Position numbers and translations under genes: made by a program. The notes beneath the pieces were generated by a model, which saw nothing but the letters and a program-made list of their open reading frames with translations, did no database searches and was not told the origin of the DNA. From Coprobacter fastidiosus (lineage in GTDB: Bacteria; Bacteroidota; Bacteroidia; Bacteroidales; Coprobacteraceae), in the NCBI RefSeq assembly GCF_030296935.1, contig NZ_AP028032.1, positions 2,480,001-2,544,000 of the forward strand: a stretch of 64,000 bases of DNA. The letters are read 5' to 3'. Shown here piece after piece: positions 15,127 through 53,397 of the stretch. How positions within the stretch are numbered: position 1 is the first letter of the stretch; each line of letters opens with the position of its first letter.

Positions 15127-16655
<1,529 letters not shown>

Positions 16656-16771
16656 CTGGAGCGACCTGCAAAAAAGGGCTAAAAGAGGAGATTATGTTCT
16701 CGTACTACGAAGGTCTATTGAAAGAGATACAATAAATAAGAGACAGCCACCGTTCCGGCAGGCGATTTGCC

Positions 16772-16845
16772 AGTCCTATAGCTCAGTAGGTTAGAGCGCT
16801 ACACTGATAATGTAGAGGTCGGCAGTTCAAATCTGCCTGGGACTA
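16772..16845 (+). tRNA. tRNA-Ile (anticodon GAT)
   Basis: A full cloverleaf: acceptor AGTCCTA/TGGGACT, D arm GCTCAGTAGGTTAGAGC, anticodon arm CTACA-CTGATAA-TGTAG giving GAT, T arm GGCAG-TTCAAAT-CTGCC, and discriminator A. CCA is not encoded (ACCT follows). It sits in the 16S-23S spacer, as is usual. Confidence 0.97.
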
Positions 16846-16861
16846 CCTGACAGAAGGTTAG

Positions 16862-16935
16862 GGGGGATTAGCTCAGCTGGCTAGAGCACCTGCTTTGCAA
16901 GCAGGGGGTCAACGGTTCGAATCCGTTATTCTCCA
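16862..16935 (+). tRNA. tRNA-Ala (anticodon TGC)
   Basis: A full cloverleaf: acceptor GGGGGAT paired with ATTCTCC using two G-U pairs, D arm GCTCAGCTGGCTAGAGC, anticodon arm CCTGC-TTTGCAA-GCAGG giving TGC, T arm AACGG-TTCGAAT-CCGTT, and discriminator A. The 3' CCA is absent from the gene. It lies 16 bp after tRNA-Ile in the same spacer. Confidence 0.97.
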
Positions 16936-17059
16936 CGAAGAAGAGATCATTGACATGTTGAAACGAAAGTAAATCGAATAAAAAAAACGAACGAGTATAA
17001 CGCCGGTATATACGATACCGCACGTGAGATCGTCAGAAAAGATTTCACGAGCACGGCGA

Positions 17060-19931
<2,872 letters not shown>

Positions 19932-20021
19932 GCTGCGAGAGCGGTATATTATGTACGATGGCGTTATACGGGATGCAGTTTAGTGAAAAGATTTACGGAC
20001 GAATCGACATGTCAAAGGAAA

Positions 20022-20133
20022 TTCAGGTGGTTATAGCGTCAGGGATCCACCTCTACCCATACCGAACAGAGAAGTTAAGCCTGACCACGCCGATGGTACT
20101 GCGTAAAAGTGGGAGAGTAGGTAGCCGCCGATT
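20022..20133 (+). rRNA. rrf: 5S ribosomal RNA
   Basis: About 112 nt, from TTCAGGTGGTTATAGCG to GTAGCCGCCGATT. The ends pair (TCAGGTGG with CCGCCGA), and the core contains CCATACCGAACAGAGAAGTT and GCCGATGGTACTGCG. It follows the 23S gene by about 90 bp and closes the operon. Confidence 0.95.
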
Positions 20134-21269: not shown

Positions 21270-24137
21270 TTATCTTGATTTTATTATTTTTATTTTCTCA
21301 GGACCGGCAGAATATTCTACGGTAAGAATATATACGCCTTGTGTCCATTGTGAGGCTTCGTTAATAGTAATTTCATTTGTACCGGAATGAACACTTTCTT
21401 TTTTGGTTAATAATACTTTTCCATTCAGGTCGTGAACAATAAGTGTAATATCTTCTTCATTGTAAGCATTTACTGTTACTTTGATGCGATCTTTAAACGG
21501 ATTCGGAGCTACATTTACAGATGCTTTTACTTCTACCGGTGTAACGCTTGTATAAATCGGATTTATCTGGAATGCTGTAATGTCTTGGAATCCGCTCATT
21601 TCGTATTTCCATGGGTATCCGTCAACGTCTAATAACCAAGCATAATCTACACCAACACTGACATCTTTAAATCCTTCATTAACATATTGCCATTCTCCGA
21701 ATCCCGAATCACTCATACGATAAACTTTGTTATCTTCGGTTATACCCCAGACTTCTTCATTTCCGGCGCTTAATTTGATGATTTTGTATGGATTCTTGAT
21801 GACTTCCCACCCGCTTTTGCGTTGTGCAGACATACGAACGATTTCTCCTTGCGGGTTGAAACCCCATACCGAATTGACATCGGCAGTTATTGAGGTGAGT
21901 TCTCCCGGAACTTTTGTCCAAGGCTTGCTTCCCGAATGGTTGCGGTAATATACGTTATTTTGGTCATCTATACCCCATACCATAGACATCGTTGCTGCTA
22001 TATCGACAATTTTGATATTAGGATCAGATTTATCAGACCATCCGTTCGATACTTCACAAGGTTGGTTACCCGGTAATGCTGCGCAATATGGTTTTCCTGA
22101 AGCGGAAAGTGCCCAAACGGTATTGCTTCCGAAAGATATTTTTTTTGTAGCCATATATTGGCTTGCTGGTTTCCAGTTTTTTATCGGATGTCCGTCGATT
22201 TCATTACAATAAATATCACTTCCACATACCATCCATACGTCTCTCAGACCGGCAGCAATACTGTTAGCCGGTTTATCAAGGCCTTCTATATATTGTTTGC
22301 TTAATTCCGATAAATGATGAAGCGGACGGAATATGCTCAGGTCTACTTCTAAGTTGGCATCAAAATAGTCTTTATCTTTTTCCGATTCTTTATACCAGGC
22401 GAGACGGTAACTTCCTCCGGCGTTTCCCGGTTGTGCACTATGATATTCATCGCATCCTTCAGCTTCCAATATGATAGATTTTGATTCTCTATCCGCAAAT
22501 TCGCGTACGAGGTTCATATATTGGTTCGGGAACCGGTGTTCCGGATGGTCGCTTCGGTGCCATACCGAACCTTCCCGCCAGTCGCTCCAGGCTTCCAATA
22601 CGATCCATTTTGCTCCTACTTCATGACCCTCTTCAAAGATGTGTCGAATACGAGGAGTTTCACCATCTTCCAAAAGAGAACTGACGTGTGTATCGAATTC
22701 CGGTTTCCAGCTATTGTAAAGCATTCCGTTTTTTACCCATGTACCTTCATTAGTTTCCGGATTCCAGTTGGTATGCACAAGGTTCATCATCGGTTGGCGA
22801 CCACCGTTGAAAGCAAAAGCGAATTTTCTGGCATCACGGTGCGTTACGATCTGGCAACGGTTTTCCATATCTGCCCATCCGAACCAACCTTGTAATCCCC
22901 AAGCAATGTACTTCATTTTAGCATCACCTTTGTTTAAGAAGTTATCGGCAAGGATAAATGCCGGAACGAGGTCGAAATCTTCTTTCATCCGTTGCTTGAT
23001 ATATAAGAAAAATTCCGACCATTGTTTGCTACTATATTGGTACTGTTCCATATTGGCATCGGCACTCCACCATTGCATCGGTACACATTTTACACCTGCA
23101 CCTTCTTGAAATGAATCTCTATCGCTGAGTTCATCCGGAGTGGTAAAGAATAGCATTTCCCGAGGTACGGTTTCATACCATTTCTTTATGGCATATTCAT
23201 ATACGAATTTTTGGTGTTCGGGGTTTGCTACATCGAATTTTTCTCCTAAATATTTTTCTACTGCCAATGGGAAAGGAGCATTATCTATAAAATAGGCGAT
23301 TTTGATATTATCTCGAGCGTTCGGGTTTCTTTTTATTGCTTCTACCATGTATTTTAAACCTGCGCAAGGTAAGCCTCCGGGTCCGGTAGCATATCCACGG
23401 TCTTCAATATCATATTCTTCGGCACCTCCATCTGGTTCTCCTCGCCCATGAGCGAAAATTACTTCGACTTTCGATTCAACCATTTCCGAAATATAGATAT
23501 CTGCAGCTTCTTGTGTATAGCCTAAATTGAAATTATAGATCGACTGTTTGTTCCATGAGATAACCTGATTGCGGCTGTATTGAGCCTTTTCCGGAGCTGC
23601 TGAAGTCCATGTCGCATCATCGCCGCTGTCACCGCCTTTTGCCAATTCCCGGGTAGTTCCTGCATGGCCACCGATAGCAAAAGTGTGCATTCCGTCGTTC
23701 CAGTTGTTTTCGAAATCAATATCCGTATCAAGGACATTGTCAGAAGTATTGTCATCTTTGCGAATAAAAACCATATCACAATTGACATTTCCGGTTTCGA
23801 ATACTAATTTCAAATCATAATAACCTTCTTCCAACTGTTTGTGGCCTAAATGTGCCAGATCAAATGTGTTGGTGTAATTGTACGGTGCTTCTACTCCGTT
23901 TTTCAACGTACCTCCGTTAATTTCCAAATGTACGGTCTGGCCTTCACCATTTCCTACTATGCGACCGGTGAAACGGTAGTGACCAGCCGATAACCATACT
24001 TTTTTGTACTGAATCCAATCTCCCGGCTGTGTATTGCCCACATACCAGTTATTCGTCGATTCCTTAACTTCAGCATAGGAAGTTAAAGAATACATCCCCA
24101 ACAAGGCAATAAAGATGTGTCGTAAGATGTGTTTCAT
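21270..24137 (-). CDS. Secreted DUF5010-like putative glycoside hydrolase with tectonin propeller
   Basis: 955 residues in four parts. (1) Signal peptide and a carbohydrate-module-like beta-sandwich, about 25-130. (2) A catalytic-looking region, about 140-600 (VEVIFAHGRGEPDGG, WGLQGWFGWADMENRCQIVT, KWIVLEAWSDWREGSVW), resembling DUF5010 and the GH71/GH99 clan. (3) Six propeller blades, about 640-865, each with a VWGI/VWAL...W pattern (tectonin type, a lectin-like fold). (4) A C-terminal sorting-like domain (VNVAPNPFKDRIKV to IKIIKSR). It is the last gene of the SusCD locus but lies beyond a terminator-like hairpin. Enzyme activity and substrate are inferred only. Confidence 0.7.
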   Translation of the reverse strand: MKHILRHIFIALLGMYSLTSYAEVKESTNNWYVGNTQPGDWIQYKKVWLSAGHYRFTGRIVGNGEGQTVHLEINGGTLKNGVEAPYNYTNTFDLAHLGHKQLEEGYYDLKLVFETGNVNCDMVFIRKDDNTSDNVLDTDIDFENNWNDGMHTFAIGGHAGTTRELAKGGDSGDDATWTSAAPEKAQYSRNQVISWNKQSIYNFNLGYTQEAADIYISEMVESKVEVIFAHGRGEPDGGAEEYDIEDRGYATGPGGLPCAGLKYMVEAIKRNPNARDNIKIAYFIDNAPFPLAVEKYLGEKFDVANPEHQKFVYEYAIKKWYETVPREMLFFTTPDELSDRDSFQEGAGVKCVPMQWWSADANMEQYQYSSKQWSEFFLYIKQRMKEDFDLVPAFILADNFLNKGDAKMKYIAWGLQGWFGWADMENRCQIVTHRDARKFAFAFNGGRQPMMNLVHTNWNPETNEGTWVKNGMLYNSWKPEFDTHVSSLLEDGETPRIRHIFEEGHEVGAKWIVLEAWSDWREGSVWHRSDHPEHRFPNQYMNLVREFADRESKSIILEAEGCDEYHSAQPGNAGGSYRLAWYKESEKDKDYFDANLEVDLSIFRPLHHLSELSKQYIEGLDKPANSIAAGLRDVWMVCGSDIYCNEIDGHPIKNWKPASQYMATKKISFGSNTVWALSASGKPYCAALPGNQPCEVSNGWSDKSDPNIKIVDIAATMSMVWGIDDQNNVYYRNHSGSKPWTKVPGELTSITADVNSVWGFNPQGEIVRMSAQRKSGWEVIKNPYKIIKLSAGNEEVWGITEDNKVYRMSDSGFGEWQYVNEGFKDVSVGVDYAWLLDVDGYPWKYEMSGFQDITAFQINPIYTSVTPVEVKASVNVAPNPFKDRIKVTVNAYNEEDITLIVHDLNGKVLLTKKESVHSGTNEITINEASQWTQGVYILTVEYSAGPEKIKIIKSR

Positions 24138-24247
24138 ATCTATTTTTTTATGTGTATTATGTATAATTTTACTCTTTCGAGACTATTTGCGAAAATTTTT
24201 CGATTGTTCTATTTGCTCAGTCCGAAAAACAGAATTTGCATAAGAGG

Positions 24248-24283
24248 AATAAAAAGAGGCACATAAAAGCACCTCTTTTTATT
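24248..24283 (-). terminator. Hairpin terminator after the GH99-like lipoprotein gene
   Basis: AATAAAAAGAGG pairs with CCTCTTTTTATT around CACATAAAAGCA, with T-rich flanks on both strands. It lies 12 bp after the stop at 24295. It probably separates the last gene of the locus or lowers its expression. Confidence 0.7.
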
Positions 24284-24294
24284 CAAGTAGATTG

Positions 24295-25629
24295 TTATTT
24301 TACTTTAAATTGATCTTTTACCATATCGAGATATAGAAGTCCATAACCTTTTCCATACGACGGGTCAGTCGGCTCTATTCCCGAATCGTATGTCCAATCA
24401 TTAAATGAATCGATCAATACCATTGGATTTGTTCCAAGATTCATTTTTGCGAGGTTACACATTGTCCAGAATCGTTCTTGAGTTTTAGGCATCCATGGAT
24501 AATTGGAGTTATTCTCGCTTGCTACGTATTGAGAATAACCGGGAGAAGCTGAAGGAACGAAATCGACGTTATAGTGCGACCAGAAATATTCTTTGTTATA
24601 TTTATAGTTTTCATTTACGAACTGGTCAAACATGATTACCCGTTCTTGTTGATTACCCCCTACTGCACACATATTTTTCATAGTTACGGCATCAACTTTA
24701 CCTGATAAATAAAAATAGTGGAATCGTGCAGGAGGAGTCCATGCTCCTTGTTGAGCAATAAGATACATCTCTTTTCCGGTGTGTTTGCGCACCGTATCTC
24801 GGATTGCCGTGTACATGTGATAAGAGTCGCTGCTGTACAGTTTGTTAGCATCCGCTATTACGACGACAGGACGTCCACCTGTATGGTAATAGTTCGGATC
24901 AGAGAAATAATCCGAAATCCGTTTGAAATAACTGCAAATACGATCAGCTCGGGATATCAATGTATCGACACGCGTTGTCACGACAATGTCCATTCCTGGA
25001 TTATTTATATCCGGAATCGTATCTAAGACTGGATATGTTTTTCTCGTCTTTGCAACGGTTTCTACGAGGTTATTTTGATTTAAATCGGAACATACACTGT
25101 TCATGTTAACCATTAAAGCAAATTTTACACCGTTTAGCTCTACTTTCGGCAATGTATCGTTCTTTCCGCATACCATATCGATGAATGCAGTATCCCGTCC
25201 GATATTTAACGGATAGATGTCGTTGGCATTTTCGTTGACTCCGGGGAGAACCATAAAGTCAATGCGGCCATAGTTACACCATTCTATGATTTTCTGCATG
25301 GCTCGTGCACCGATTGTATCTGCGGCCAAATGGTATTTACCCGGTTCTGTTTCTTCCGGAATATCATGCCAAGGTTTTGTATTTGGACCGAGTTTGCCGG
25401 CAGCAAGGTCCTGTTCTTGCGTGATGCGTGTCCACTGGTCTATATTGGTTTCCAGTGGAGCTTGCGGATTGTAGAGATATACTCCTACCGGAATATCTTG
25501 TGTTACTTTTACCTCCTCAATTTCATAGTTCAACCAATAATCATCGATCGAAGGGTTGTCGTCTTTACAGGAAGTAACAATGATACCCGCTGATAGCAGG
25601 CTGTATATTAATAATTTATTTACTTTCAT
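24295..25629 (-). CDS. GH99/GH71-like lipoprotein in the SusE position
   Basis: 444 residues with a lipoprotein signal (LLSAGIIVTSC, Cys lipobox near residue 21). After a short spacer it has VGVYLYNPQAP, IDFMVLPGVNEN, GRPVVVIADANKLYS and, near the C-terminus, VLIDSFNDWTYDSGIEP followed by YGKGYGLLYL. This recalls the C-terminal active-site strand of GH99/WbsX-like barrels. It follows susD where a SusE/SusF surface glycan-binding protein would be expected, so it may be an enzyme or a binding protein built on an enzyme fold. It lies 30 bp after susD. Confidence 0.65.
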   Translation of the reverse strand: MKVNKLLIYSLLSAGIIVTSCKDDNPSIDDYWLNYEIEEVKVTQDIPVGVYLYNPQAPLETNIDQWTRITQEQDLAAGKLGPNTKPWHDIPEETEPGKYHLAADTIGARAMQKIIEWCNYGRIDFMVLPGVNENANDIYPLNIGRDTAFIDMVCGKNDTLPKVELNGVKFALMVNMNSVCSDLNQNNLVETVAKTRKTYPVLDTIPDINNPGMDIVVTTRVDTLISRADRICSYFKRISDYFSDPNYYHTGGRPVVVIADANKLYSSDSYHMYTAIRDTVRKHTGKEMYLIAQQGAWTPPARFHYFYLSGKVDAVTMKNMCAVGGNQQERVIMFDQFVNENYKYNKEYFWSHYNVDFVPSASPGYSQYVASENNSNYPWMPKTQERFWTMCNLAKMNLGTNPMVLIDSFNDWTYDSGIEPTDPSYGKGYGLLYLDMVKDQFKVK

Positions 25630-25659
25630 GTAGTTTTATATTTTACTGTAAATACTAAA

Positions 25660-27687
25660 TTAGTCTATCAAATAACCGCTTTTAAGTACTGATATAAGTT
25701 CGTAATCCAACGCTTTGACCAGAGCTTTATCTTCGTTTGTTTCTCCGGATACTTTTTTAGCATAGTCAACTAATTCTTCATAGGTTGTTCCATACAGGTG
25801 CTCAAAGTATTCGGCACGGAAGAAGATTACTTTTGTTCCCAAATACAACTCGTCGGCGGTATCAATTGCCGGATCTTTTTTCGCAAATCCCAAACTGGTC
25901 CAAATATTATCACCCCATCTGTCAGGACGGGCATACGGACTTGTTTTTTGCAGATTATCCACGGCTTTATAGTATTCGGTTTTGTTTTGATAAGTTTCTG
26001 ATAACGGATATATCATACGTTCTGTCCAAAAGTTGTAGACTGTATTTAATCCATCTACGTTGGAAGATGCTCCACCTGAAATAAACGGTGGCCAACCCAT
26101 GGAACGGGTACGGCGTTCAAGATTCCAACCTTCTATACCGTTAAAGAAATCGGCAATATAACGTTGCTTATAGATTTGTTCTAACTGCCCTTCTTGTCCG
26201 TTTGAACCTGTAATTTTAGCTTGGTATAAACCTCGACTATCCTTAAATCCGACTTTATCCGTACCCCATTTAATACCGTCTTGAGCCAAATATTCTTCAA
26301 CTCCGGAAATATCATATTGGGCAAATGAGGCACGAATACCGTCTTCGTAATATTCTTGAGCGCTCTTGCTGCCTAATCCGAACAATACTTTAGCTTCGGC
26401 TTTCAAGAAGCAGGCATCTGCCCAATTTAAGATACGGAATTTGGCGTCGATCTTGATAAATTCTTCTTTGACATAAGAGGGATTATATACACTTCGTGTA
26501 TTTAATGGGTCTGTTGTTCGTTCGGTTGTACTTCCGGGACGGTAAGCGGCTTCCCAAGTAGATGGCATTCTAACCTGCTCACGCATCGGAACATAAGGAA
26601 CCGAATGCCCTACGATAACAGAATCTCGACGGAAATCGTTCATCCCGTCCATGGTATGATTAAGCCAATCAGTACAATTTAATACATCGCAAACATGAGG
26701 ACGAGTGATCGTATCCCGAACCTGGAATTGTTTGTCTGCCGCAGTCCCGCGGGCATTCGACTTTTCTACAAAAGCTTCGATACGGGGATCGTTGAAAGTG
26801 AAAAGATACAAAGACAAATATTCAGCCAATGCCGGGAATGTTGAATCACTTAATGTCCCTGTTTCCAATGGTTTTAGCAGGCGATCCCAATAGTAGGAAC
26901 GGTCAGCGGCACGGTCGGTTCCCCATTGCGGCTGTACGATTTCGTCCACCGAGGCAATCAGCCAGTCTTCGTGTTCCATGGCTTTAGCAGCATGTTCTCT
27001 TGCCAGATCCATGCTGAGATTTTGCGACTGCATAGCTACATTCAAACGCAGTGTATTGGCAAATTTTCTCCATTTGGCGATATTTGTTAATGCCGTAGCA
27101 GTATTTGTCGTTATTCCGAAAACGGGATCTTGCATCAACACATCTGCTGTGTAGGGAGTTTCCGGATCGTATAAATTTACAGCATCATCCAATAATTTTA
27201 AAATGTTTGTATAGACTTCGAGTTCCGTATCGTATTTGAAATCTCGTTTGTTGGAATTTCCGACCAGCATAGCATCGCTCATCGGTATGCCACCATACAT
27301 AGATACCATTACATAATATATGTATGCTTTCCATGTTTTGGCAATTGCAGAACGGTTTTCAAAACCTTCCTTTCCTTCATATTCTAATTCACAATCATTT
27401 AAATCTCGTAAGATATCGACATAAAATTTCTTGTAATATCCGTTGCCTTCATCTTGAGAGGGTGTTGTTCTAAAACCTAACACTAAGTAGCGAGCAAACA
27501 AGTTCCCATTCATAAAATTGAATTCGGCTACCGTATTCATTGTCCGGTACACGGTACCGGCAAAGATGTTCGGCAGTTCCGCTTCATACATCTTGTTACT
27601 ATTTGTATTAACTTCTTCAAATTTATCGACGCATCCGAACAGACTTCCGATAAAAACGAGAAGACATATATAGGCTATCTTTTTCAT
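25660..27687 (-). CDS. SusD/RagB-family outer-membrane glycan-binding lipoprotein
   Basis: 675 residues with a lipoprotein signal (YICLLVFIGSLFGC) followed by VDKFEEVNTNSNKMYEA, the start typical of the SusD-like nutrient-binding group. The tetratricopeptide-like helical half includes IAKTWKAYIYYVMVSMYGGI and RDLNDCELEYEG; the C-terminus has SLGFAKKDPAID. It is longer than the common ~550 residues. It lies 18 bp after the SusC gene and should form the lid of that transporter. Confidence 0.93.
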   Translation of the reverse strand: MKKIAYICLLVFIGSLFGCVDKFEEVNTNSNKMYEAELPNIFAGTVYRTMNTVAEFNFMNGNLFARYLVLGFRTTPSQDEGNGYYKKFYVDILRDLNDCELEYEGKEGFENRSAIAKTWKAYIYYVMVSMYGGIPMSDAMLVGNSNKRDFKYDTELEVYTNILKLLDDAVNLYDPETPYTADVLMQDPVFGITTNTATALTNIAKWRKFANTLRLNVAMQSQNLSMDLAREHAAKAMEHEDWLIASVDEIVQPQWGTDRAADRSYYWDRLLKPLETGTLSDSTFPALAEYLSLYLFTFNDPRIEAFVEKSNARGTAADKQFQVRDTITRPHVCDVLNCTDWLNHTMDGMNDFRRDSVIVGHSVPYVPMREQVRMPSTWEAAYRPGSTTERTTDPLNTRSVYNPSYVKEEFIKIDAKFRILNWADACFLKAEAKVLFGLGSKSAQEYYEDGIRASFAQYDISGVEEYLAQDGIKWGTDKVGFKDSRGLYQAKITGSNGQEGQLEQIYKQRYIADFFNGIEGWNLERRTRSMGWPPFISGGASSNVDGLNTVYNFWTERMIYPLSETYQNKTEYYKAVDNLQKTSPYARPDRWGDNIWTSLGFAKKDPAIDTADELYLGTKVIFFRAEYFEHLYGTTYEELVDYAKKVSGETNEDKALVKALDYELISVLKSGYLID

Positions 27688-27705
27688 ATTCTATAATTAT
27701 ATATA

Positions 27706-30700
27706 TTAGAATGATACTTTAATATCGAAACCATAAGTTGCCGAAGGTTGGGCATATCCTTCTTCAAATCCCTGTGCATTTCCGGTAGTACGGGTTGCTT
27801 CCGGATCGATTCCTTTCGGAGTGTTCTGGAATAATATAGCAACGTTACGACCCACAGCAGATACTCTGACGCTTTTCAGCGGAGTTTTTTGTAACCATTT
27901 TTTGGGAATCGTATAACCGATGCTGATCTCTCTCAGTTTGATATAGCTGGCATCATAGATGTAGCGTTTCATACTTGAAGTGTTATTGTGTGTCCAATGT
28001 ACAGTCGGATTTACCCAAGACATATTCGGTTTTCCTGCCCATTCGCCTTCGGACTCGTCATATACGGCATTTTCCATATATATACCTTTGGGACGGTCTC
28101 CATCAGGATAGAGAACAGCATTATTCTTTAAGTCTGCACCTGGAGTTACCGTATTACCAATGTCCATGATACCATGCATTTCATTGTCGGTTTCTCCGAG
28201 AATACGTTTTGCCATCAAAAATTCGGAGCGTCCTTCAAGAGATTGTACGGTTTGCCCGTCGATAGCACCTTGCCAAGCTGTACGGGAAAGGAAATTTCCT
28301 CCTTTTTTGAAATCGATCATCAAGTTGAAGTCGAAGTCCCATACTCGAACTGAGTTTCTCCATCCTCCGATCCAGTCCGGTTGGACGTTTGCCAATACTT
28401 GGTCTGATACATATTTAGGACGACCATCAAGTTGTACGCATATTTTACCGTTTTCGTCCCGTTTGTAGTCATTCCCGTACAAAGTTCCGTAGGGTTCGCC
28501 TACTACGGCGTATAGTTTAACTCCATTTACGCCGCTTCCTAACTCATAACGATCCATTCCATCGATAAGAGAGACGATTTTTGAGTTATTTTTTGCCCAG
28601 TTGAATGTCGTGGTCCATGTTACTAATTTGGTTTGTACCGGAATTGCGGTAACTGTTAGTTCATGTCCCCAGTTTTTAACTTCACCGGCGTTGTACATCA
28701 TTTGCGTATAACCGGATACCGGAGAGATATCTCCACGTATGATCTGATCTTTTGTCCGTTTGTTATAATAAGTATAGTCTATCGACAGACGGCTATCCAA
28801 GAATCGAAGATCTGCACCGATTTCTCCAGATAGTGTTTTTTCAGGTTTCAGATTCGGATTTTTTCGGGTGGATTCTCCGTTATAATAAGCAATTCCATTA
28901 AACAAACCGGCATAGGAGTATCCATTATATAGATTGTCAAAACCGGTATCATTTCCTACTTGAGCAAAAGATCCGCGTAATTTGGCGAATGAAAGAATAT
29001 TTTTATCTATTTCGATCATATCGGTAAATACAAGACCTGCACCGGCAGAGTAGTAGAAATAGGAGCAATTGTCGATCGGTAGGGCCGAAGACCATTCGTT
29101 ACGTGCTGTAAGGTCTAAGTATGCACCTTTATATCCTACGGAAAGCATTCCAAAAACTGCTTCTTTCCATTTGTTGCTTTCTCCTTCGCTGGTCGTCGGG
29201 TTCCCGGCATTGTTGGCAAGACTCGTAAAATCGGCTTTCAATAACTGATTGACTTTAGAATCGGTCTGTTCTGATTTTATCTGTTGATGAGACAATCCTA
29301 AGTTGGCATTGATACTTACATCCCCGAAACGTTGGTTGTACATTAATATTCCTTCATAATTATTGTTCATTGCAATTCGATTACGTACATTGTATTCTCC
29401 GTCGGTATCCCATGGGGAATTGTAGTTGGTAAATGCCCATGCCCGAGTTGTTTGCATATCGGTTGCGGCACGTAATCTCAGCTTCAAATAGTTGGTAAAA
29501 GTTACATTCAATGTAACATTTCCCATAAACCAATGCTTATAGTCTTCATTGGAAAGTTCATTCAATAGCCAGAACGGATTGTTAAATCCCCGTTGTGTTT
29601 TTGCTGTTCCATCCGGATTTTTCCAAGGAATCAATTCGTCCATTGTTGCGTCGCGCGGCAAGTTGGCAACCACCCAAAGTGGATTACGGTTAGAACTTCC
29701 TCGAAATCCACGATTGTCGGCATGTTCATATACGTAACGAGCACCTAAATCCATACTTAAGAAATTCGTGAATTTAGCAGTAGAGTTCAAGTTGAAGTTG
29801 TGACGATCTAAATTGTTGAAATTTTTCAAGATATCATCGGCATGAATATTGGTATAAGAGAAACGGAAACTTCCATTATCCATTACTTTATCGAAAGAGA
29901 CACTGTTGGTAATCGCTTTACCTACTTGGTACATATTTTCGATTGTTTCTTTGGCGGGAGAGTATTGTTTAATTTCGCCATTACGTCCTACTACATCGAA
30001 TCCCAACATCGGGAGTCCCCAACAACGTTGGTCTTGTCCGGCCATATTGGGGTTAAAAATTCCATAGGGAAGGTTTGGATCGTATGAGTAACCGTTACCT
30101 GATGCTGTATAATAATTAAATCCTCTTTCAAAACCTGTATTTTGTCCTGATCCGTATATATTTTGATAAGTAGGATATTGCATCAGGGTACTGAACATCA
30201 TATTGAAGTTATAGCTGACACCTAATCCTGCTTTACGGGTTGCTTTCTTGGTCGTAATCAAAATAACTCCATTCGCACCGTCCGATCCGTATAAAGCGGA
30301 AGCATTTGCACCTTTCAGAACTTCTATACTTTCGATTTCATCCGGACTGATATTATTTGCCGGGTTACCGTAATCGAGGTCACCGCTTTCTCCCATATCG
30401 TTCATAATGGGTACACCGTCGATAACGTATAACGGTTGGTTATTCCCGGACAAAGAGCCGTTACCACGGATAACTACACGTGTAGATGCCAATGGTCCGC
30501 CATTTCCGATTACCTGAAGGCCTGCGACTTTACCGGAGAGCATATCCAGCATGTTCGAAGCTCGCACATCGCTCATCGATTCCGTATTTACTGTTTGTCG
30601 GGCATACGACAAGGATTTTGCATCACGGGTGATACCGAGAGCCGTTACGACGACTTCGTTCAATGCTTTAGAGTTCTCTTTTAACGTAATCCGGAAATTG

Positions 30701-31026
30701 GTTTTATCTCCGATTCTGATTGTTTGAGGCTCAAAGCCTATAAAACTTACCCGTAAGGTCGATTTGGGTGGAACACTTAGAGTAAAGTTTCCTTTGTAAT
30801 CGGTCATCGTTCCTTTAGAGGACCCGACAACAGATACGTTTGCACCCGTAACAGGTTCTCCGGAAGCATCGAGAACAGATCCGGAAATCTTTATTTCAGA
30901 ATTCTGAGCGTGGAGTAGCTGTACGCAGAGGAATAGCCCCACTATCCAAGCAATACGGAAACAAGATGTCCATTGCAAGAAATACGTTAGCGCATTTCTC
31001 CATGTAGTTTTTTTAGGTATTTCCAT
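27706..31026 (-). CDS. SusC/RagA-family TonB-dependent outer-membrane transporter
   Basis: 1,106 residues from the ATG at 31026 (MEIPKKTTWRNALTYF). The longer reading from 31080 adds 18 residues ahead of the signal and runs into the upstream hairpin region. Order: signal peptide, carboxypeptidase-like beta-sandwich (ISGSVLDASGEPVTGANVSV, ~40-120), plug domain (LDMLSGKVAGLQVIGNG, PLYVIDGVPI, VLKGANASALYGSDGANGVI), and the 22-strand barrel ending YGFDIKVSF. It imports oligosaccharides across the outer membrane with TonB energy. It is paired with susD downstream. Confidence 0.94.
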   Translation of the reverse strand: MEIPKKTTWRNALTYFLQWTSCFRIAWIVGLFLCVQLLHAQNSEIKISGSVLDASGEPVTGANVSVVGSSKGTMTDYKGNFTLSVPPKSTLRVSFIGFEPQTIRIGDKTNFRITLKENSKALNEVVVTALGITRDAKSLSYARQTVNTESMSDVRASNMLDMLSGKVAGLQVIGNGGPLASTRVVIRGNGSLSGNNQPLYVIDGVPIMNDMGESGDLDYGNPANNISPDEIESIEVLKGANASALYGSDGANGVILITTKKATRKAGLGVSYNFNMMFSTLMQYPTYQNIYGSGQNTGFERGFNYYTASGNGYSYDPNLPYGIFNPNMAGQDQRCWGLPMLGFDVVGRNGEIKQYSPAKETIENMYQVGKAITNSVSFDKVMDNGSFRFSYTNIHADDILKNFNNLDRHNFNLNSTAKFTNFLSMDLGARYVYEHADNRGFRGSSNRNPLWVVANLPRDATMDELIPWKNPDGTAKTQRGFNNPFWLLNELSNEDYKHWFMGNVTLNVTFTNYLKLRLRAATDMQTTRAWAFTNYNSPWDTDGEYNVRNRIAMNNNYEGILMYNQRFGDVSINANLGLSHQQIKSEQTDSKVNQLLKADFTSLANNAGNPTTSEGESNKWKEAVFGMLSVGYKGAYLDLTARNEWSSALPIDNCSYFYYSAGAGLVFTDMIEIDKNILSFAKLRGSFAQVGNDTGFDNLYNGYSYAGLFNGIAYYNGESTRKNPNLKPEKTLSGEIGADLRFLDSRLSIDYTYYNKRTKDQIIRGDISPVSGYTQMMYNAGEVKNWGHELTVTAIPVQTKLVTWTTTFNWAKNNSKIVSLIDGMDRYELGSGVNGVKLYAVVGEPYGTLYGNDYKRDENGKICVQLDGRPKYVSDQVLANVQPDWIGGWRNSVRVWDFDFNLMIDFKKGGNFLSRTAWQGAIDGQTVQSLEGRSEFLMAKRILGETDNEMHGIMDIGNTVTPGADLKNNAVLYPDGDRPKGIYMENAVYDESEGEWAGKPNMSWVNPTVHWTHNNTSSMKRYIYDASYIKLREISIGYTIPKKWLQKTPLKSVRVSAVGRNVAILFQNTPKGIDPEATRTTGNAQGFEEGYAQPSATYGFDIKVSF

Positions 31027-31086
31027 AAATAAAAATTTAAAATTTGTATTAGTGTGTGATATTGTATAATCGAGGTTCATAGAGAT

Positions 31087-31118
31087 ATAAAGCCGTTAGA
31101 ATGGTCTAACGACTTTAT
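31087..31118 (-). terminator. Intra-locus hairpin between the beta-helix gene and susC
   Basis: On the minus strand ATAAAGTCGTTAGA pairs with TCTAACGGCTTTAT around CCAT, using one U-G pair. The same base pair would be a C-A mismatch if transcribed on the + strand, which suggests a minus-strand RNA structure. The T-tract after it is weak. It may act as a partial terminator or a processing/stability site between the two genes. Confidence 0.6.
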
Positions 31119-31136
31119 ATCTTATCATTGTGTTTA

Positions 31137-33029
31137 TTATTTTATCCAGATTTTCTTTACTGATATTTGATTATTTAAAACAGCTTTTACAATATAGAAT
31201 CCGCTGTTGATATCGGTTATTTCCATGCTGCCGGTTGTTGCTTTTAATATACTTCCGTTCATATTATATAACTGAATGTTTGCATCGTTATTTCCTGTTC
31301 CGACAACGATCTCTCCATTACGGACATAGATTTCGATTTGATCTTTGTCTTCGGTTGTGTTTGCGATACTGGTAAGAGTAGGATCCCATGGATCGGAAGA
31401 GGCATCCATTTCTGCTTCAGTCATTTCGAGAGATCCTACGGCACAAGAATTTCCGGTAATTTTACGAGGATTACCCATTTGGTCTGTTGTGATACCGAAT
31501 TGTGTCAGATATTCAGCGTTACCAAAAGTAAGTCCGGGAGCATTTTCATCTATAAAAGGAACTATATATCTTTTGGGAGCGTAAATAGAGGCGTCATCCG
31601 ACAAACCGGAGGCGTTATGTATATCCCAATCCATGTCTTTTGTACTTCCCGGCATATAATTTACCGTGCAATTTATAGCTGCTCCATCAAGAATAGGATT
31701 GTTGGTCAGTCTGCCGAAATAAGTATTGTATGCTTCAAATTCTCCTTCAGCCATCGCATCTCTTAAGGTCAAATCGGAAGTTGTCATTTTACCACCGTCA
31801 ACAGCATAGTTCCCTTGGAAAAGACAATTATAAATGCGTTTAGTACAATTTGTCTTCGGATTAGTGGCATCGTTCGTAATTAAAAGACCGGCACCATGTC
31901 CACCGTTACCTTGAGTGATATTGTCTACTACCGTACAATTTACCATCGTAAATTCGCTATTTTTAGATGCTGCTCTTAAATTAATTGCAGCACCGTCGTT
32001 GATTGCCTGGTTATAGGCAAAAGTAGAATTTAAGACTTTTACTTTACTAGTATTTTTGGGAGCTATATTGTTGATTAGTAGCCCCCCACACATAGTTGCA
32101 GAGTTGGCGATAAACGAACAATCCTTGATAGTAATATCGTTACCTGCATCATCTCTGTCGGCAGTTTCATTTATGGCAATAGCGCCACCGTTGCCAGAAC
32201 TGTTTCCCATAAACAGACAATGTTCGATAGTTGCTTGAATCGGTTTACCGGCCACTAAACACCAAAACTTGATAGCACCACCCGTACCATTGATTTTGGT
32301 CGTATTTCCCATGAAAGAACAACCTACGGCAACAAGTTTTCCTCCGCACCAGTTTATTGCATTACCTTCCCGGTTTTCGTTTCCTGTAAACGTACAATTG
32401 TATAGGTTCACATCCCCAATTTCATTTTTGTGAATAGCTCCGCCTCGGCCATTGGAATCTGCATAATCTGTAGGTGAATCGGGGTTTGCGTGAGCTACGG
32501 TATTGAACATAAATTTGCAATCTTCGAATGTCGCAACTAAGTTACCTCCGATCCAGAAACCGTTTCCCCCATCGTTGATCAGATCCCGACCATTTTGGAA
32601 AGTAAGATTTTTAAAAGTAAGATTACCTCCTCCGTTCAAGCGGAACAGACGACCTTTGTGTTCCGAATCGAAACCGGATTGCAGGCCTTCACCGATCATC
32701 GTGATATTTTGCCATGCGCCACCCATAATTACAAATCCTTGGTGTCCTTTTGCTCCGGCTTGTTGATGTACATAGCCACTTGTTCTATCGGGTTTTTGAT
32801 TAGGGTCTTGAGACATCATGATCATCCCATTTACATGAATTACATCTCCTGCTTCAATTACGCTATTCAATTGGCTTAAATAAGCTACCGGAGTTTCAGG
32901 AGTTAAACCATCATTCTCGGCAGCTCCGCCATTCTCAGCAGACGCAACATAAAGGTCTTTTGCACTCAAAGAAAAAGCTGAAAACGAAAAAAGTAAGGCT
33001 GTTGCCCACAATTTTGTAGAAGTTCTCAT
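31137..33029 (-). CDS. Secreted right-handed beta-helix protein with C-terminal sorting-like domain
   Basis: 630 residues: signal peptide (LLFSFSAFSLSA), then LYVASAENGGAAENDGLTPE, a start common to Chlamydia-PMP-like and polysaccharide-lyase-like beta helices. About 100-520 is a repeated helix with units such as GGAIHKNEIGDVNLYNCTF and GNGGAIAINE. The C-terminus (EIVVGTGNNDANIQLYNMNG ... VKKIWIK) resembles the type IX sorting domain. No catalytic motif of a known lyase family is evident, so it may bind or cut the glycan of this locus. It is encoded upstream of susC. Confidence 0.7.
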   Translation of the reverse strand: MRTSTKLWATALLFSFSAFSLSAKDLYVASAENGGAAENDGLTPETPVAYLSQLNSVIEAGDVIHVNGMIMMSQDPNQKPDRTSGYVHQQAGAKGHQGFVIMGGAWQNITMIGEGLQSGFDSEHKGRLFRLNGGGNLTFKNLTFQNGRDLINDGGNGFWIGGNLVATFEDCKFMFNTVAHANPDSPTDYADSNGRGGAIHKNEIGDVNLYNCTFTGNENREGNAINWCGGKLVAVGCSFMGNTTKINGTGGAIKFWCLVAGKPIQATIEHCLFMGNSSGNGGAIAINETADRDDAGNDITIKDCSFIANSATMCGGLLINNIAPKNTSKVKVLNSTFAYNQAINDGAAINLRAASKNSEFTMVNCTVVDNITQGNGGHGAGLLITNDATNPKTNCTKRIYNCLFQGNYAVDGGKMTTSDLTLRDAMAEGEFEAYNTYFGRLTNNPILDGAAINCTVNYMPGSTKDMDWDIHNASGLSDDASIYAPKRYIVPFIDENAPGLTFGNAEYLTQFGITTDQMGNPRKITGNSCAVGSLEMTEAEMDASSDPWDPTLTSIANTTEDKDQIEIYVRNGEIVVGTGNNDANIQLYNMNGSILKATTGSMEITDINSGFYIVKAVLNNQISVKKIWIK

Positions 33030-33401
33030 AAGTAAAAATTTAGAGTTAATGAATATTGTGAATTCTGTATTTTCAAGAAGAAGCTAAGTTTTTTGGTAAT
33101 TTAGATCAGGCTCTTCTTAAAACTTGTTACAAAAGAAATTTGGTGATATTAAAAATGCTCAACTACATTGTTACAAACTGTATTAAATTCTTATTAAATT
33201 GATTTTAATATTCCTGATATGAGAATTATAATTTTAGGACTACTATGTTAATAATATAAATACCTGTGAATTAGTGATAAACAATATTATTATAAAAAGA
33301 GACCTATATTGGGGGAACGATTATTGATTCCAGTAATAAAAAGATATATTAAACCGAGAATTTATATTTATATGGTGATACAGAATAGGTCGAGTGTTTT
33401 T
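33030..33401. other. Intergenic region upstream of the beta-helix gene
   Basis: About 370 bp, very AT-rich. No frame, RNA gene or TAnnTTTG box was recognised on the minus strand, although it should contain the promoter of the gene at 33029. The minus-strand sequence just before that start (TAAATTTTTACTTATG) nearly matches the one before susC (TAAATTTTTATTTATG). Confidence 0.45.
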
Positions 33402-33452
33402 AATGAAGTACCCCCTAAAAGTTTTTTATCTACTTTTAGGGGGTACTTCATT
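33402..33452. repeat. Perfect 20-bp inverted repeat, copy 1 of a paired element
   Basis: AATGAAGTACCCCCTAAAAG and its exact complement flank an 11-nt loop TTTTTTATCTA. A related element at 36642-36699, read on the other strand, keeps the loop (CTTTTATCTA) and the AATGAAG and CCCTAAAAG parts of the stem, while the middle of the stem differs with compensating changes. The two copies bracket the gene at 33480-36506 in opposite orientation. This one has a T-run only on the + strand, where no gene needs a terminator. Confidence 0.85.
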
Positions 33453-33479
33453 TTTATATTAAATGGCTTGTGAAATCTT

Positions 33480-36400
33480 TTATTTTTGAATTTTTGTGGT
33501 GTATGTTTTTCCTTCGAGGATAGTTTGTATAATATATATGCCTTTAGGAAAAGCGGATATATTAATTGTTTTATTGAAAGGTATATTTTGTTCTTTATTT
33601 TTTAATGTGCCTATTAAATTCCCTTGTGTATTATAGATTCGTACAATTATTTTTCCGGTTCGAACGGCTTTGATTGAGAGGATATTATTTGCATAAGTTA
33701 TCGTTATCGGAGATTCTATTTTTGTATGTCCCATTCCCATCGGTTTGTAGGAAGGTTTGGTATCGCCGTATTCTGCATTCCCTTTCAGCCATTCGCCGGC
33801 CTGTCCGGCTAAGAACAGATAGTAATCGGTGGGCAGATCATCGTCGATTCCCAAGAATTTACCTTGAGGGTCTGATGAAGTTGCGAATATCGGTGTATTT
33901 TTACTGTTTGCACATTTGAAAATACAGGTCCCTTCATCCAGTTCGTCGAACATGGCTACATAGATCATCTTGGCTCCGGCTTTTTTTGCTTCGGCAATCT
34001 GTCTCCATAAGAAATCGCCTTTCAGGCGAGGTATTTCATCATATTTATCTGCGGTCAGATTTTTTAAGTTTCTCCATGAGAATCCCGGAAAAACTACCGG
34101 GGCATATCCTACATTATTCATTCTACACCATAAAATATCGGTTTTCAGGAATTTTTCCACACGGTCCATGAATCCTGCTATAGAGTTGTAACGTCCGACC
34201 GACCAAGGAGAAATAATATCTGCTGTTTTTAATACTTCGACCAGATCTTTCGTGTCGGGATAGGCGTCGCCTCCTCCGGTTCTCCACTGATAAGATGATC
34301 CCAGTAAGTAGGAAAATTTCTGTTTAGCCCCGTCTAAATCTTGCAGATTGTCCATCATTGTTTTAAACTGGGCGGGAGTACTGCCCTTGCCTTGTAAACC
34401 GATACCCCATAATGCAATCATCGGTTTTCCGTTATGGTGAAGATAGGTAGGACATACAGACGGATCGGAAAGACGGTATTTAGCATTGATGATTTTCCAG
34501 TCATTTAATACTTTATAGATATCTGCCTCAGTAGATAGTCCGCTGCAATCATACATAATCGAAAAGGCTCGATTATATTTTTTTGCTGCTTTTACGGCAT
34601 GTTTCAAAACTTTTCCTATTGCTTGACTTGTTATGGAAGATATGAATCTCTGAATGAAAACGCCATCGATTCCGTATTGTTGCATCCATTTGAAGTGCAG
34701 ATCGACAGTCTCTTCATCGGAAGAACTGAAAAAATAGGCCTGGCTATTGTCGGGGTAAACGAAATCGACCGGATATTTTTTTGTGTATTCGGTCATGTCG
34801 GGCCAAAATTCTATTCCGGCATATCCCGGTTCGAATTTTCCGTCACGGCCGCAGTGAACATATCCGTTGTTTCCGGAGTCATCACCTTTTACAGAAAACC
34901 ATCCTTGATAACCTGCCATTACCAGATTATTATAACTTGGGTATATCGGTGTTCCTTCGGGCTTTGTTCCCGGGTTTAGAGTAGAGACTACTTCGACAGA
35001 ACCGATAGTGCATCGGTTATTGGTAAACGGTCTTGTTTTCCCTTTTTGATCGGTGGTTATGCCGACTTCTTGTAACCATTGGGGATTTCCGTAATTAGAA
35101 GCGAGAGAAGAACTTAGTACCGGAATACATTTTTCGGCCTGAATCTGATCGGAAGTAGATCCTTCGAATTCGGCAAGGGATTCTACTGCCGAAAAATAGT
35201 TGAAGAGGTTGTCTTCCATGTAATATTTTACGTTGATATTATTGTTCCCGTCGCTTCCTATGAAAGAGTTTTTAATGATTAAGTAGGTGGCTTCGGGCGT
35301 ATGACGGAACGACAGATCGGAATTCTGATTTCTGCTGCCGTTGTTTGTCGCATAGTTGTTTTCGATAATACAGTTCAATATTCTTTTCAATACGGTCTGG
35401 CTGGTTGACGAATCGTCGTTATAGAACCGGATTCCTGCCCCATGTCCTGCGTTCCCGGTTGTCGTATTTTCAGTGATGGTACAGTTGATCAGATCGAATG
35501 TTTCTCCTGTTTGACCGGCAAGCAACATGATTGCTCCGGCGTCGTTTGGAGAACTGTTTTTATAGATCGTGGAATTTATCAACTGATAGTCATTGATCGC
35601 TGTTTTTTTATTTTCAAGGGAGATAGCTCCACCTCGTCCTGAATTTTCGGCAAACGTACAACTTTCGATTCGAAGTTTGACGGCATTATTATTTGTAGAG
35701 TTGCTTACGGCTATCGCACCGCCTGCCGAACCGTTGTTTTTGTAAAAGTACGAATTAGAACAAAAAATGGAAACTTGTTTTTCTTCAGGAGTAACCGTGT
35801 TGGCGGTATTGGCTTGTGTAGCGATAGCGCCACCGAGGGTAGCATTCCCTTGCGCGAAAGAACAGTTATCTGTCATCAACTTTCCGGATGCGACGTATAT
35901 AGCCCCTCCGTAAGAAGCGTTGCCCCGAGCGAAACTGCAATTTTTCAGTGTTACGATGGCGTTATCGACCTGAATGGCTCCTCCGTAACGAAGAGTGGAT
36001 GATCCGCAGGCATCGAAATTGCAATTCTCGATGGTGACATTTCCGCCTTCAACACTGATTGCGCCACCACCTATTACCATGGGATTTATATTTTTCAGGG
36101 CATTGGTTATCGAGATGTTTTTGATTGTCAGATTTTCGACGTTTTGCAATAACAGTACCCGTTGCCCTAAAATAAGAGATGTCCCGTCGATACCGGATGT
36201 TTCGGGAGAGATACCTTGTATGACGATATTTTTTTTGTCAGACGGAAATTTGATGCCGAGACAATCATCTTCCATTTGTCCCATTCCGGTTCCCGAAGCT
36301 TCGTTTTGTATGCTTAGTATGTCCAGTATGAAAATTTTATCGTCGTTTTCGAGAACAGTAAATGCTTTTCCCAATGTTGCATAGGGTTCGTTTTGCGAAC

Positions 36401-36506
36401 CGGGATTCGAGTCTTTTCCGAAGGAAGCGACGTAGATTTCTTTTGCTGATGCAAGGTTTGATAGCAGCCCGAAAATGAGTAAGATCGGTAGTCGTAAGTT
36501 TTTCAT
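33480..36506 (-). CDS. Beta-helix / GH71-GH99-like glycoside hydrolase fusion, secreted
   Basis: 1,008 residues. After the signal peptide (LPILLIFGLLSNLASA) comes a beta-helix, about 25-480, with repeated GGAI(S/Y/A)V...C(S/N)F units. From about 525 a TIM-barrel-like domain starts with NLVMAGYQGWFSVKGDDSGN and contains IEFWPDMTEY, QYGIDGVFIQRFISS, RAFSIMYDCSGL, KPMIALWGIGLQG, GFSWRNLKNL and KMIYVAMFDELDEGTC, which I recognise as the GH71/99-like family often labelled xylosidase/arabinosidase. The last ~80 residues are a sorting-like domain ending TTKIQK. It is the first gene of the locus. Confidence 0.78.
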   Translation of the reverse strand: MKNLRLPILLIFGLLSNLASAKEIYVASFGKDSNPGSQNEPYATLGKAFTVLENDDKIFILDILSIQNEASGTGMGQMEDDCLGIKFPSDKKNIVIQGISPETSGIDGTSLILGQRVLLLQNVENLTIKNISITNALKNINPMVIGGGAISVEGGNVTIENCNFDACGSSTLRYGGAIQVDNAIVTLKNCSFARGNASYGGAIYVASGKLMTDNCSFAQGNATLGGAIATQANTANTVTPEEKQVSIFCSNSYFYKNNGSAGGAIAVSNSTNNNAVKLRIESCTFAENSGRGGAISLENKKTAINDYQLINSTIYKNSSPNDAGAIMLLAGQTGETFDLINCTITENTTTGNAGHGAGIRFYNDDSSTSQTVLKRILNCIIENNYATNNGSRNQNSDLSFRHTPEATYLIIKNSFIGSDGNNNINVKYYMEDNLFNYFSAVESLAEFEGSTSDQIQAEKCIPVLSSSLASNYGNPQWLQEVGITTDQKGKTRPFTNNRCTIGSVEVVSTLNPGTKPEGTPIYPSYNNLVMAGYQGWFSVKGDDSGNNGYVHCGRDGKFEPGYAGIEFWPDMTEYTKKYPVDFVYPDNSQAYFFSSSDEETVDLHFKWMQQYGIDGVFIQRFISSITSQAIGKVLKHAVKAAKKYNRAFSIMYDCSGLSTEADIYKVLNDWKIINAKYRLSDPSVCPTYLHHNGKPMIALWGIGLQGKGSTPAQFKTMMDNLQDLDGAKQKFSYLLGSSYQWRTGGGDAYPDTKDLVEVLKTADIISPWSVGRYNSIAGFMDRVEKFLKTDILWCRMNNVGYAPVVFPGFSWRNLKNLTADKYDEIPRLKGDFLWRQIAEAKKAGAKMIYVAMFDELDEGTCIFKCANSKNTPIFATSSDPQGKFLGIDDDLPTDYYLFLAGQAGEWLKGNAEYGDTKPSYKPMGMGHTKIESPITITYANNILSIKAVRTGKIIVRIYNTQGNLIGTLKNKEQNIPFNKTINISAFPKGIYIIQTILEGKTYTTKIQK

Positions 36507-36641: not shown

Positions 36642-36699
36642 AAAAATGAAGAGAACCCTAAAAGTTAGATAAAAGACTTTTAGGGTTCTCTTCATTTTT
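36642..36699. repeat. Perfect 24-bp inverted repeat, copy 2; probable argD terminator
   Basis: AAAAATGAAGAGAACCC continues to TAAAAGT and is exactly complementary to the right arm at 36676-36699, with a 10-nt loop. It lies 10 bp past the argD stop, and on the minus strand ends in TTTTTAAGG, so it can terminate the arginine operon. It is the inverted partner of the element at 33402-33452, with a conserved loop and covarying stem. Confidence 0.85.
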
Positions 36700-49879: not shown

Positions 49880-49900
49880 TATAAATATAAAATTATAACC

Positions 49901-52900: not shown

Positions 52901-53320
52901 TGGGAAGCTTCGAAGTATGTCATCTGTTATGTCGTAAAAAAGAATGGATCTACGATAGGTTTTGTAAAGGCAGATGCGGCGGAGTTGGTATATGAGGATG
53001 AGTTGATGCAGTCCGGTGATGAATATACAGTTCAGGGAGTGAGTGAATATGGTATGTTGAGCGAATTGTCGGAAGTTGTTAAGGCTGATGTATCCGGGAT
53101 AGAAACTCTTGATTTACCGGATTACATTGCTTATCGAAACGGTGATGAGATCGTGGTTAGAAATATTCCGGAATCGGCGACAGTAAGCGCTTATTCTTTA
53201 ACGGGTACAATCTTGGCACGGGAAAAAGTATCGGACGGTACTTTCCGGATAAGTACTGTTCAGCCTTGTATTATTCGTATCGTTTCAGAAAAAAAGACAA
53301 GTGTGTTCAAAATGTTGTGA
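49901..53320 (+). CDS. Large multidomain pectin methylesterase (CE8), secreted
   Basis: 1,139 residues: signal peptide (FLFLLCLSVIGSIRA); a beta-sandwich-like region to ~200; two InlB-type repeats, about 205-355 (ISAEAAFGYEFVNWTDDDGG, GGWSDGQTEKV); a second sandwich; an Ig-like Big_5 domain, about 543-640 (ALILNFNKKIKAGTGDVVL); and CE8, about 645-970, with VVAQDGSGDYTSVKEAIDAA, SYQDTYLTS, GAVDYIYGAG and YFGRPWHD. The tail has a fibronectin-like segment and a C-terminal sorting-like domain (IAYRNGDEIVVRN to TSVFKML). The accessory domains suggest surface attachment. It is 21 bp after the CE12-CE8 gene. Confidence 0.88.
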   Translation: MKQMMKRFGFLFLLCLSVIGSIRAEEKLLYSTTFQDWESSSASDDAVVVPAKTHFSNEDFSFSLSQVVVSPTGTDSKFTSSYVTPGYIRAEKKDNSAIEISALESVTKIEFVEAATGNDRGLGVQIKYEGQSEWETIFDTPLDGTYYYDSNNEKYKDTQGHLVSISIPEEKQKNVSIRFYNLNGSQYAFLLSLDIYGDYVSTAEQVTLSTKTNIEGAGNISVFPVSETYDINSTVKISAEAAFGYEFVNWTDDDGGAVLGSDPELELVLNTDRKITANFNKLTLYKLTVSVNGSRWGKISFSPEAEDNFYPEGTIVTLSVVDNPVTIFGGWSDGQTEKVRTVQITGNVELSANFDQKDFIVGWDFNDAASAEKRKEIPAPFYSESTNQGLLSAYEPTGASVNWLYHAAEYTPAHANARLWTTDFSSRRYFQAQFSTKGYTNIEVTSLMSGSYQVYSKQKMQYSLDNKNFKDLVTIDLSSVYGQSLWEDCIGKLPVEAEDQSMVYIRWIADETSTILGSGNDGTTLANVFVFADPKNEYDPEAPVLASSVPAEGSSSASANGALILNFNKKIKAGTGDVVLNGISLVPEYGSTSVTLPYTKLAYNTPYSVDIPAGFVTNVSGIPNEAFSVTFTTMSRPDPIAKVFDVVVAQDGSGDYTSVKEAIDAAPSDRTSPWLIYIKAGKYQGHLEIAKPYIHLIGEDAESVIISDDRVSGDNDLGKPVYSPTDGATVYVTGDNFYATGISFENEYGITAQDGPQALALCTYSDRAILNRCKLRSYQDTYLTSNKTGRRHFLNECFIEGAVDYIYGAGDVFFNKCTLYNTRKSGGYIVAPNHKKEEKWGYVFDHCVIDGNADVEGLYFGRPWHDSPKTVFLYTTCKVPVYAKGWYFTMGGIPEIWADYKTVDAYGDPVDVSLRNDYYYYYEGETIIDESTGQPKKDENGVTMKENKIEGYAKNSLTDEEAAAYTIENVMSGSDDWDPAIMTESVEAPSGLKIEGKTLSWEASKYVICYVVKKNGSTIGFVKADAAELVYEDELMQSGDEYTVQGVSEYGMLSELSEVVKADVSGIETLDLPDYIAYRNGDEIVVRNIPESATVSAYSLTGTILAREKVSDGTFRISTVQPCIIRIVSEKKTSVFKML

Positions 53321-53357
53321 TAGCATTTATTAATTATTAATGTGCGTATTTGTGATG

Positions 53358-53397
53358 AAAGTCCGGAAAGAATCTATACTTCCGGACTTTTATTTTT
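53358..53397 (+). terminator. Terminator after the large CE8 gene
   Basis: AAAGTCCGGAA pairs with TTCCGGACTTT around an 11-nt loop and is followed by TATTTTTTAG. It ends the first transcript of the pectin cluster, 37 bp after the stop. Confidence 0.85.

Follow-up and report, generated by a model that had tools for sequence, protein, structure and literature searches.

A stretch of 64,000 nucleotides from Coprobacter fastidiosus contig NZ_AP028032.1 (assembly GCF_030296935.1, positions 2,480,001-2,544,000), hereafter the window, carries on its minus strand a six-gene locus built around a SusC-SusD pair (21270-36506, in the window numbering used below). An earlier note on this DNA had placed six genes here with SusC and SusD flanked as we find them, and its gene order and coordinates hold, all six being intact. 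In transcription order, the locus opens with a fusion protein of 1008 residues (33480..36506) that combines a signal peptide, a beta-helix, a barrel of the glycoside hydrolase family 99 (GH99) clan and a type A sorting tail of the type IX secretion system (T9SS). It is followed by a beta-helix-like protein of 630 residues with a T9SS tail (31137..33029), a SusC-type TonB-dependent transporter (27706..31080; TIGR04056, E 2.3e-199), a SusD-type surface lipoprotein (25660..27687; PF12741, E 2.1e-42) and a GH99-like lipoprotein of 444 residues of the OpGH99A type (24295..25629). The last gene (21270..24137) encodes a 955-residue protein made up of a CBM35 domain, a DUF5010 barrel, a tectonin propeller and a T9SS tail.

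The intergenic gaps are, in the same order, 450, 56, 18, 30 and 157 bp, and the three small ones (56, 18 and 30 bp) make the beta-helix, SusC, SusD and lipoprotein genes a tight block. With SusC and SusD adjacent, 18 bp apart and both far above their family cut-offs, this is a polysaccharide utilisation locus (PUL) of the SusCD type. It is flanked on one side by the arg operon, with a terminator-like palindrome of 20 pairs between that operon and the fusion gene (36647..36694), and bounded downstream by a 16S-tRNAIle-tRNAAla-23S-5S rRNA operon on the plus strand (15127..20133). Since the locus is closed on both sides, no hidden gene extends it, and the six genes include, as previously noted, no GH92, GH76, GH13, lyase, sulfatase or regulator. 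No Bacteroides-type promoter motif (TTTG-N18-22-TAnnTTTG) occurs on the locus strand, the window total being near chance, and sigma-70-like sites are as numerous as in shuffled sequence.

Three of the six products carry T9SS sorting tails, namely the fusion, the DUF5010 protein and the plain beta-helix protein, whose tail scores above the NCBIfam cut-off (TIGR04183) and below that of Pfam. As read from the sequence, acidic residues come after the lipobox in both SusD and the lipoprotein. From these targeting signals, all six products look placed at the outer membrane or cell surface and none looks periplasmic; the plain beta-helix protein is a possible surface scaffold or adhesin. No family match to a periplasmic hydrolase was obtained among the six proteins, so that the locus does not amount to a self-sufficient PUL.

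A lipoprotein without the GH99 catalytic pair

The only solved relative of the lipoprotein detected by phmmer was OpGH99A (PDB 5ngw, E 8.6e-33), and a three-member lipoprotein profile retrieved the same structure at E 6.7e-50, with GH99 enzymes ranking far behind. To our knowledge, OpGH99A had no assigned role when its structure was solved. The catalytic pair of GH99 lies within the motif FNEWHEG (E333/E336 in BxGH99), and the corresponding positions in the window lipoprotein are Asp411 and Tyr414. In an alignment of 16 members, which come from genomes of Bacteroidales and of the Chitinophaga type, Glu never occupies the first catalytic site (D, N, Q, H, R or K instead) and is found at the second only in L031 and L032, so that no member has both. 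Such variation at the first site is what a loss of catalysis predicts, and the lipoprotein is therefore read as non-catalytic. The earlier count of three candidate enzymes is thus reduced by one, since the pair is incomplete in 16/16 members.

It could still be argued that the lipoprotein is an enzyme whose catalytic residues sit elsewhere on the barrel: the GH99 fold family is catalytic, Glu419 (in the motif IEPT, just downstream of the pair position) is invariant in the lipoprotein family, and the second-site Glu is kept in the two members named above. Glu419, however, aligns with the additional IEP Glu of GH99, outside the catalytic pair, and the first site varies freely. OpGH99A itself is presented as a GH99-related protein lacking catalytic machinery, at least in the title of reference 36 in PMC13063451, and, according to PMC13063451, none of the remaining 18 putative enzymes assayed from the mannan PUL acted on the mannan. 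We thus consider an enzymatic lipoprotein very unlikely.

In each of the 16 loci for which the upstream flank was covered, the lipoprotein gene comes right after SusD and shares its strand. A very weak match in G223 (49.7 bits) has no SusCD nearby and probably falls outside the family. With a lipobox followed by Cys-Lys-Asp-Asp, and at the position of SusE/SusF, the protein looks like a surface glycan-binding protein. The fixed place of the family right after SusD across distant Bacteroidota offers a testable role, i.e., glycan capture for the SusCD importer. In the lipoprotein tree, the window copy groups with those of L023 and L033, apart from its paralogues in the same genome; the three SusCD-lipoprotein modules of this genome are therefore old or separately acquired. 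Pfam labels 15 of the 16 members PF14307 (Glyco_tran_WbsX, "glycosyltransferase WbsX") though the solved relative is a GH99-type protein, and this annotation of the family will mislead.

Barrels of the fusion and DUF5010 proteins

Within the fusion protein, the N-terminal beta-helix spans about residues 20-510 and the GH99-clan barrel about residues 511-925, ahead of the T9SS type A tail. A barrel profile of 26 members matched the solved structures of BtGH99 (E 1.3e-8), human MANEA (E 6.7e-8) and BxGH99 (E 7e-7). The barrel motif FDEvdEGT lies on FNEWHEGT of GH99, and both catalytic Glu are present in 26/26 members (HMMER alignment), as Glu855 and Glu858 in the window protein. Taken alone, the window barrel scores 19.9 bits against a Pfam GH99 cut-off of 33, and is hence a relative within the GH99 clan rather than a GH99 member. 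PF03659 (GH71) matched neither the three window barrels nor the 26 barrel relatives, and the "family 71" label of BxGH99 in PDB names is a naming artefact rather than a sign of GH71 kinship. The GH71 half of the label first given to these proteins is therefore unsupported, the one PF03659 match seen being weak (E 0.025) and in a relative of the lipoprotein. An AlphaFold model of the fusion barrel, of low confidence (mean predicted local distance difference test, pLDDT, 46), had MANEA and BtGH99 as top Foldseek matches, and VIA-align of this same low-confidence model scored GH5, GH1, GH71 and GH99 entries nearly alike. Since the models are of low confidence, fold matches of this and the DUF5010 barrel were taken as support only.

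Judged by its residues, the fusion barrel is the one strong enzyme candidate of the locus, and since its GH99-clan family is conserved, uncharacterised and intact at the active-site pair, it makes a clear target for enzyme discovery. The genome encodes five paralogues of the barrel, no relative was found among viral contigs, and the beta-helix/barrel fusion recurs in G247, right after SusC-SusD-lipoprotein. These data also bear on the idea that the six genes are there for attachment to a glycosylated surface rather than for nutrition, the SusCD importer being kept for another ligand. Two beta-helix proteins, a CBM35, a tectonin propeller and a scarcity of enzymes would fit such a role. The invariance of both catalytic Glu in the 26 barrel relatives and the full hydrolase sets of close relatives argue the other way, and we give this idea little credence.

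The beta-helix module recurs in the genome (L020:7594-10695, L021:7675-10881, L015:16805-18673, L016:2970-5117 and window 33480-36506) with differing C-terminal parts, e.g., the GH99-clan barrel in the window, an esterase-like SASA domain in L021 and a part without family assignment in L020. Barrel genes of other genomes have stop codons inside the matched stretch in L067 (9563-10822), L083 and L098; the first, in two frames, is probably a pseudogene, and the stops of the latter two may just be upstream of the start.

In the last protein of the locus, DUF5010 (PF16402) reaches 78.6 bits for a cut-off of 23.7, and CBM35 and tectonin domains were found as well. Its barrel has a motif resembling the GH99 pair, Asp519/Glu522, which is invariant in eight aligned members, and the DUF5010 sequence profile yielded no PDB match and no link to GH99. 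A low-confidence AlphaFold model (mean pLDDT 50) aligned with MANEA (Z 14.5, 263 residues, 4.0 A), and a GH5 mannanase tied with it (Z 14.3). Of the three GH71/GH99-clan-like barrels proposed in the earlier note, the fusion and the lipoprotein are thus related to GH99 by sequence, and the kinship of DUF5010 to GH99 is unproven. The propeller matches Tectonin 2 (5fsb, E 1.4e-20), a lectin that prefers O-methylated sugars (PMC5238581). With its glycosidase-like barrel, the protein is plausibly a second surface enzyme and/or a lectin.

A further comparison is with GH195, described as an endo-alpha-1,3-mannanase distantly related to GH99, T9SS-secreted, fused to another domain and from a PUL of the type that holds OpGH99A (PMC13063451). 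In an alternative reading, the fusion barrel family would be GH195-like and its target an alpha-mannan decorated by sulfate, methyl or acetyl groups. Sulfatase-like genes often neighbour barrel relatives (L068, L069, L071, L072, L078, L080 and L089), the tectonin preference points to O-methylated sugars, and a deacetylase and an esterase are encoded in cluster L014 of this genome. The likeness to GH195, however, is drawn from its description in PMC13063451, the window locus has no sulfatase, and the ligand of the tectonin here cannot be read from sequence. We regard this alternative as rather unlikely.

Partner enzymes in relatives and in the same genome

In L033 and L023 (Bacteroidia bacterium PG1894_40 and Candidatus Symbiothrix), SusD and lipoprotein genes ~50% identical to those of the window are followed by a beta-helix protein and an orthologue of the CBM35-DUF5010-tectonin protein (43% identity), and a GH35-like DUF5597 protein is also present; L033 has SusC and GH43 in addition. 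Homologues of the plain beta-helix protein adjoin SusCD-lipoprotein in L015, L016, L023, L024 and L033. Beside the core in L024, L025 and L027 stands a GH92 that is 63-65% identical to the copy in L014, and L024 further encodes GH43 (52%) and GH2-PA14 (63%). Overall, enzymes beside SusCD-lipoprotein in relatives compare as follows with those of this genome: GH92 56-75% to the L014 copy (44% in L031), GH43 52-53%, GH2-PA14 63% and GH2 43-60%, with DUF5010 also among these neighbours. DUF5010 adjoins the SusC-SusD-lipoprotein core in Bacteroides faecis, B. congonensis and B. finegoldii, and in the first two the core was confirmed to have GH2, GH92 and a kelch sensor-like gene next to it. In G720, the barrel (49%) and GH92 (66%) stand beside DUF5010; as G720 was found via DUF5010 alone, the association is independent of lipoprotein-based sampling. 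The system is rare and patchy: the lipoprotein family turned up in 4 of 295 genomes from the order and one of five from the genus, and DUF5010 in 2/393 genomes of the order and 1/395 of the phylum.

Orthologues of these partner enzymes (GH92, GH43, GH2 and DUF5010) are encoded in L014, L017 and L018 of the C. fastidiosus genome. Cluster L014 (~1.320-1.339 Mb) comprises GH31, a deacetylase, GH43 (with weak PDB matches only), GH2-PA14, a paralogue of the DUF5010-tectonin protein (39% identity), an esterase, GH92 and a kelch sensor-like protein, with no SusCD seen within ~19 kb on its left and ~11 kb on its right. Paralogues of the fusion barrel adjoin GH92 and GH2 in L017, GH2 genes in L018 and another SusCD in L019. 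Two further beta-helix-SusC-SusD-lipoprotein loci, L015 and L016, have no recognised enzyme in the 19.5 kb covered. Genome-wide, we counted 12 GH92, no GH76 and no GH99 above the Pfam cut-off.

It follows that the nearly single-clan toolkit attributed to this locus does not describe the system, given that this genome carries the partner enzymes of its relatives at other places. A self-contained PUL that digests a single alpha-glycan, for instance yeast mannan or alpha-1,3-glucan, with nothing but three enzymes of the GH71/GH99 clan would agree with six adjacent, bounded genes and with the GH99 relationship of two of the three barrels. It is at odds with the missing catalytic pair of the lipoprotein, the lack of an encoded periplasmic enzyme, the other enzyme families found nearby in relatives with enough flank, and a genome devoid of GH76, of above-cut-off GH99 and of any GH71-specific signal. 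Such a PUL is, to our mind, highly improbable.

A family of kelch-repeat proteins of ~840 residues with a signal peptide (L014:16067-18595, L018:4902-7415, L020:4702-7230 and L093:6126-8636), also seen beside relatives' loci, probably consists of membrane sensors or regulators; no DNA-binding domain was recognised in them. Two further GH92-rich loci of the genome are L092:5538-14766 (three GH92) and L093:10751-15290 (two GH92, next to SusC). At L096:2759-7952, T9SS genes resembling gldK-gldL-gldM-gldN, as read from the sequence, adjoin a GH92 locus, which fits the T9SS tails at the window locus. Within the window, a pectin-type cluster that lacks SusCD occupies the plus strand at 48215-62922; it encodes three proteins with pectinesterase domains, a GH88, a GH43, GDSL esterases and a beta-helix protein.

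Proposed role and comparison with known systems

On balance, we think it probable that this locus takes care of surface capture, the first cut and import within a polysaccharide utilisation system whose parts are dispersed. The importer would consist of SusC and SusD, and the lipoprotein at the SusE position, a GH99 fold that has lost its catalytic pair, would serve as surface glycan-binding protein. The T9SS-anchored fusion may be the endo-acting enzyme, its beta-helix a scaffold or binding part, and the CBM35-DUF5010-tectonin protein could add a second T9SS surface enzyme and/or a lectin. Because no product of the locus resembles an exo-enzyme of the periplasm, enzymes from elsewhere would be needed, and final breakdown might rely chiefly on the orphan cluster L014. 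The locus is likely, then, a pared-down SusCD type left with capture, first cut and import, in which a GH99 relative that has lost catalysis acts as the binding subunit. This suggests that the chemistry of a PUL should not be read from its own genes alone, as transporter, first cut and final digestion appear spread over several places.

Several points weigh against this proposal. Most relatives were picked up via the lipoprotein, which biases the neighbourhood counts, and the joint working of the dispersed loci rests on orthology and synteny rather than on co-regulation, no shared promoter or regulator site having been found among these loci. By hhalign, DUF5010 compared with GH99 gave 21.8% and 0.4%, sequence does not show the two to be kin, and the AlphaFold models of both barrels are of low confidence. 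Finally, with GH43, GH2, GH31 and a deacetylase among the enzymes, mannose may be just a side chain of the target.

As for that target, the alpha-linked glycan first suggested is retained in part. Alpha-mannose is plausible because GH92 alpha-mannosidases stand beside the core in relatives and 12 are encoded in this genome, and the presence of GH43, GH2, GH31, an esterase and a deacetylase suggests a decorated heteroglycan. The gene families thus point to an alpha-mannose-containing heteroglycan as the most likely substrate. Yeast mannan is unsupported (no GH76 and no GH99 above cut-off in the genome), as is alpha-1,3-glucan (no GH71-specific signal in any window barrel). A galactofuranoside, considered from the literature, was supported by no test. 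It is tempting to speculate further, with a little less than even confidence, that a GH99-fold lineage became a dedicated non-catalytic glycan-binding subunit travelling with its own SusCD, that three enzyme-poor capture modules here feed one shared, dispersed enzyme set, and that the YQGWF-type barrel is an uncharacterised GH99-clan glycoside hydrolase family acting on such a heteroglycan.

In the open-access literature searched, we found no described PUL that shares this order of six genes. The closest solved relative, OpGH99A of Ochrovirga pacifica, resembles the lipoprotein in lacking both catalytic Glu; its context, however, is a marine sulfated-mannan PUL with sulfatases, GH195 and GH92 (PMC13063451), whereas the window locus has no sulfatase or GH92. 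The fusion barrel has both Glu in common with GH99 enzymes (BtGH99 4acy, BxGH99 4ad1, human MANEA 6zdc), the alignment covering the C-terminal third, yet it is distant (16-20 bits for a cut-off of 33) and fused with a beta-helix as well as a T9SS tail. GH71 alpha-1,3-glucanase has the TIM barrel in common and, when a poor model was compared by fold, scored level with GH99 and GH5, but its PF03659 signature is unmatched in the window barrels and their relatives. Gut alpha-mannan PULs with GH76, GH92 and GH99 share SusCD and the alpha-mannose theme, and differ in that this genome has no GH76 and no true GH99. Last, the loci of Bacteroides finegoldii, B. faecis and B. congonensis (L026, L028, L029 and L030) have the same SusC-SusD-lipoprotein core and a DUF5010-CBM35 protein, but with their own enzymes and a sensor-like gene alongside, and without the fusion, beta-helix and tectonin of the C. 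fastidiosus locus.

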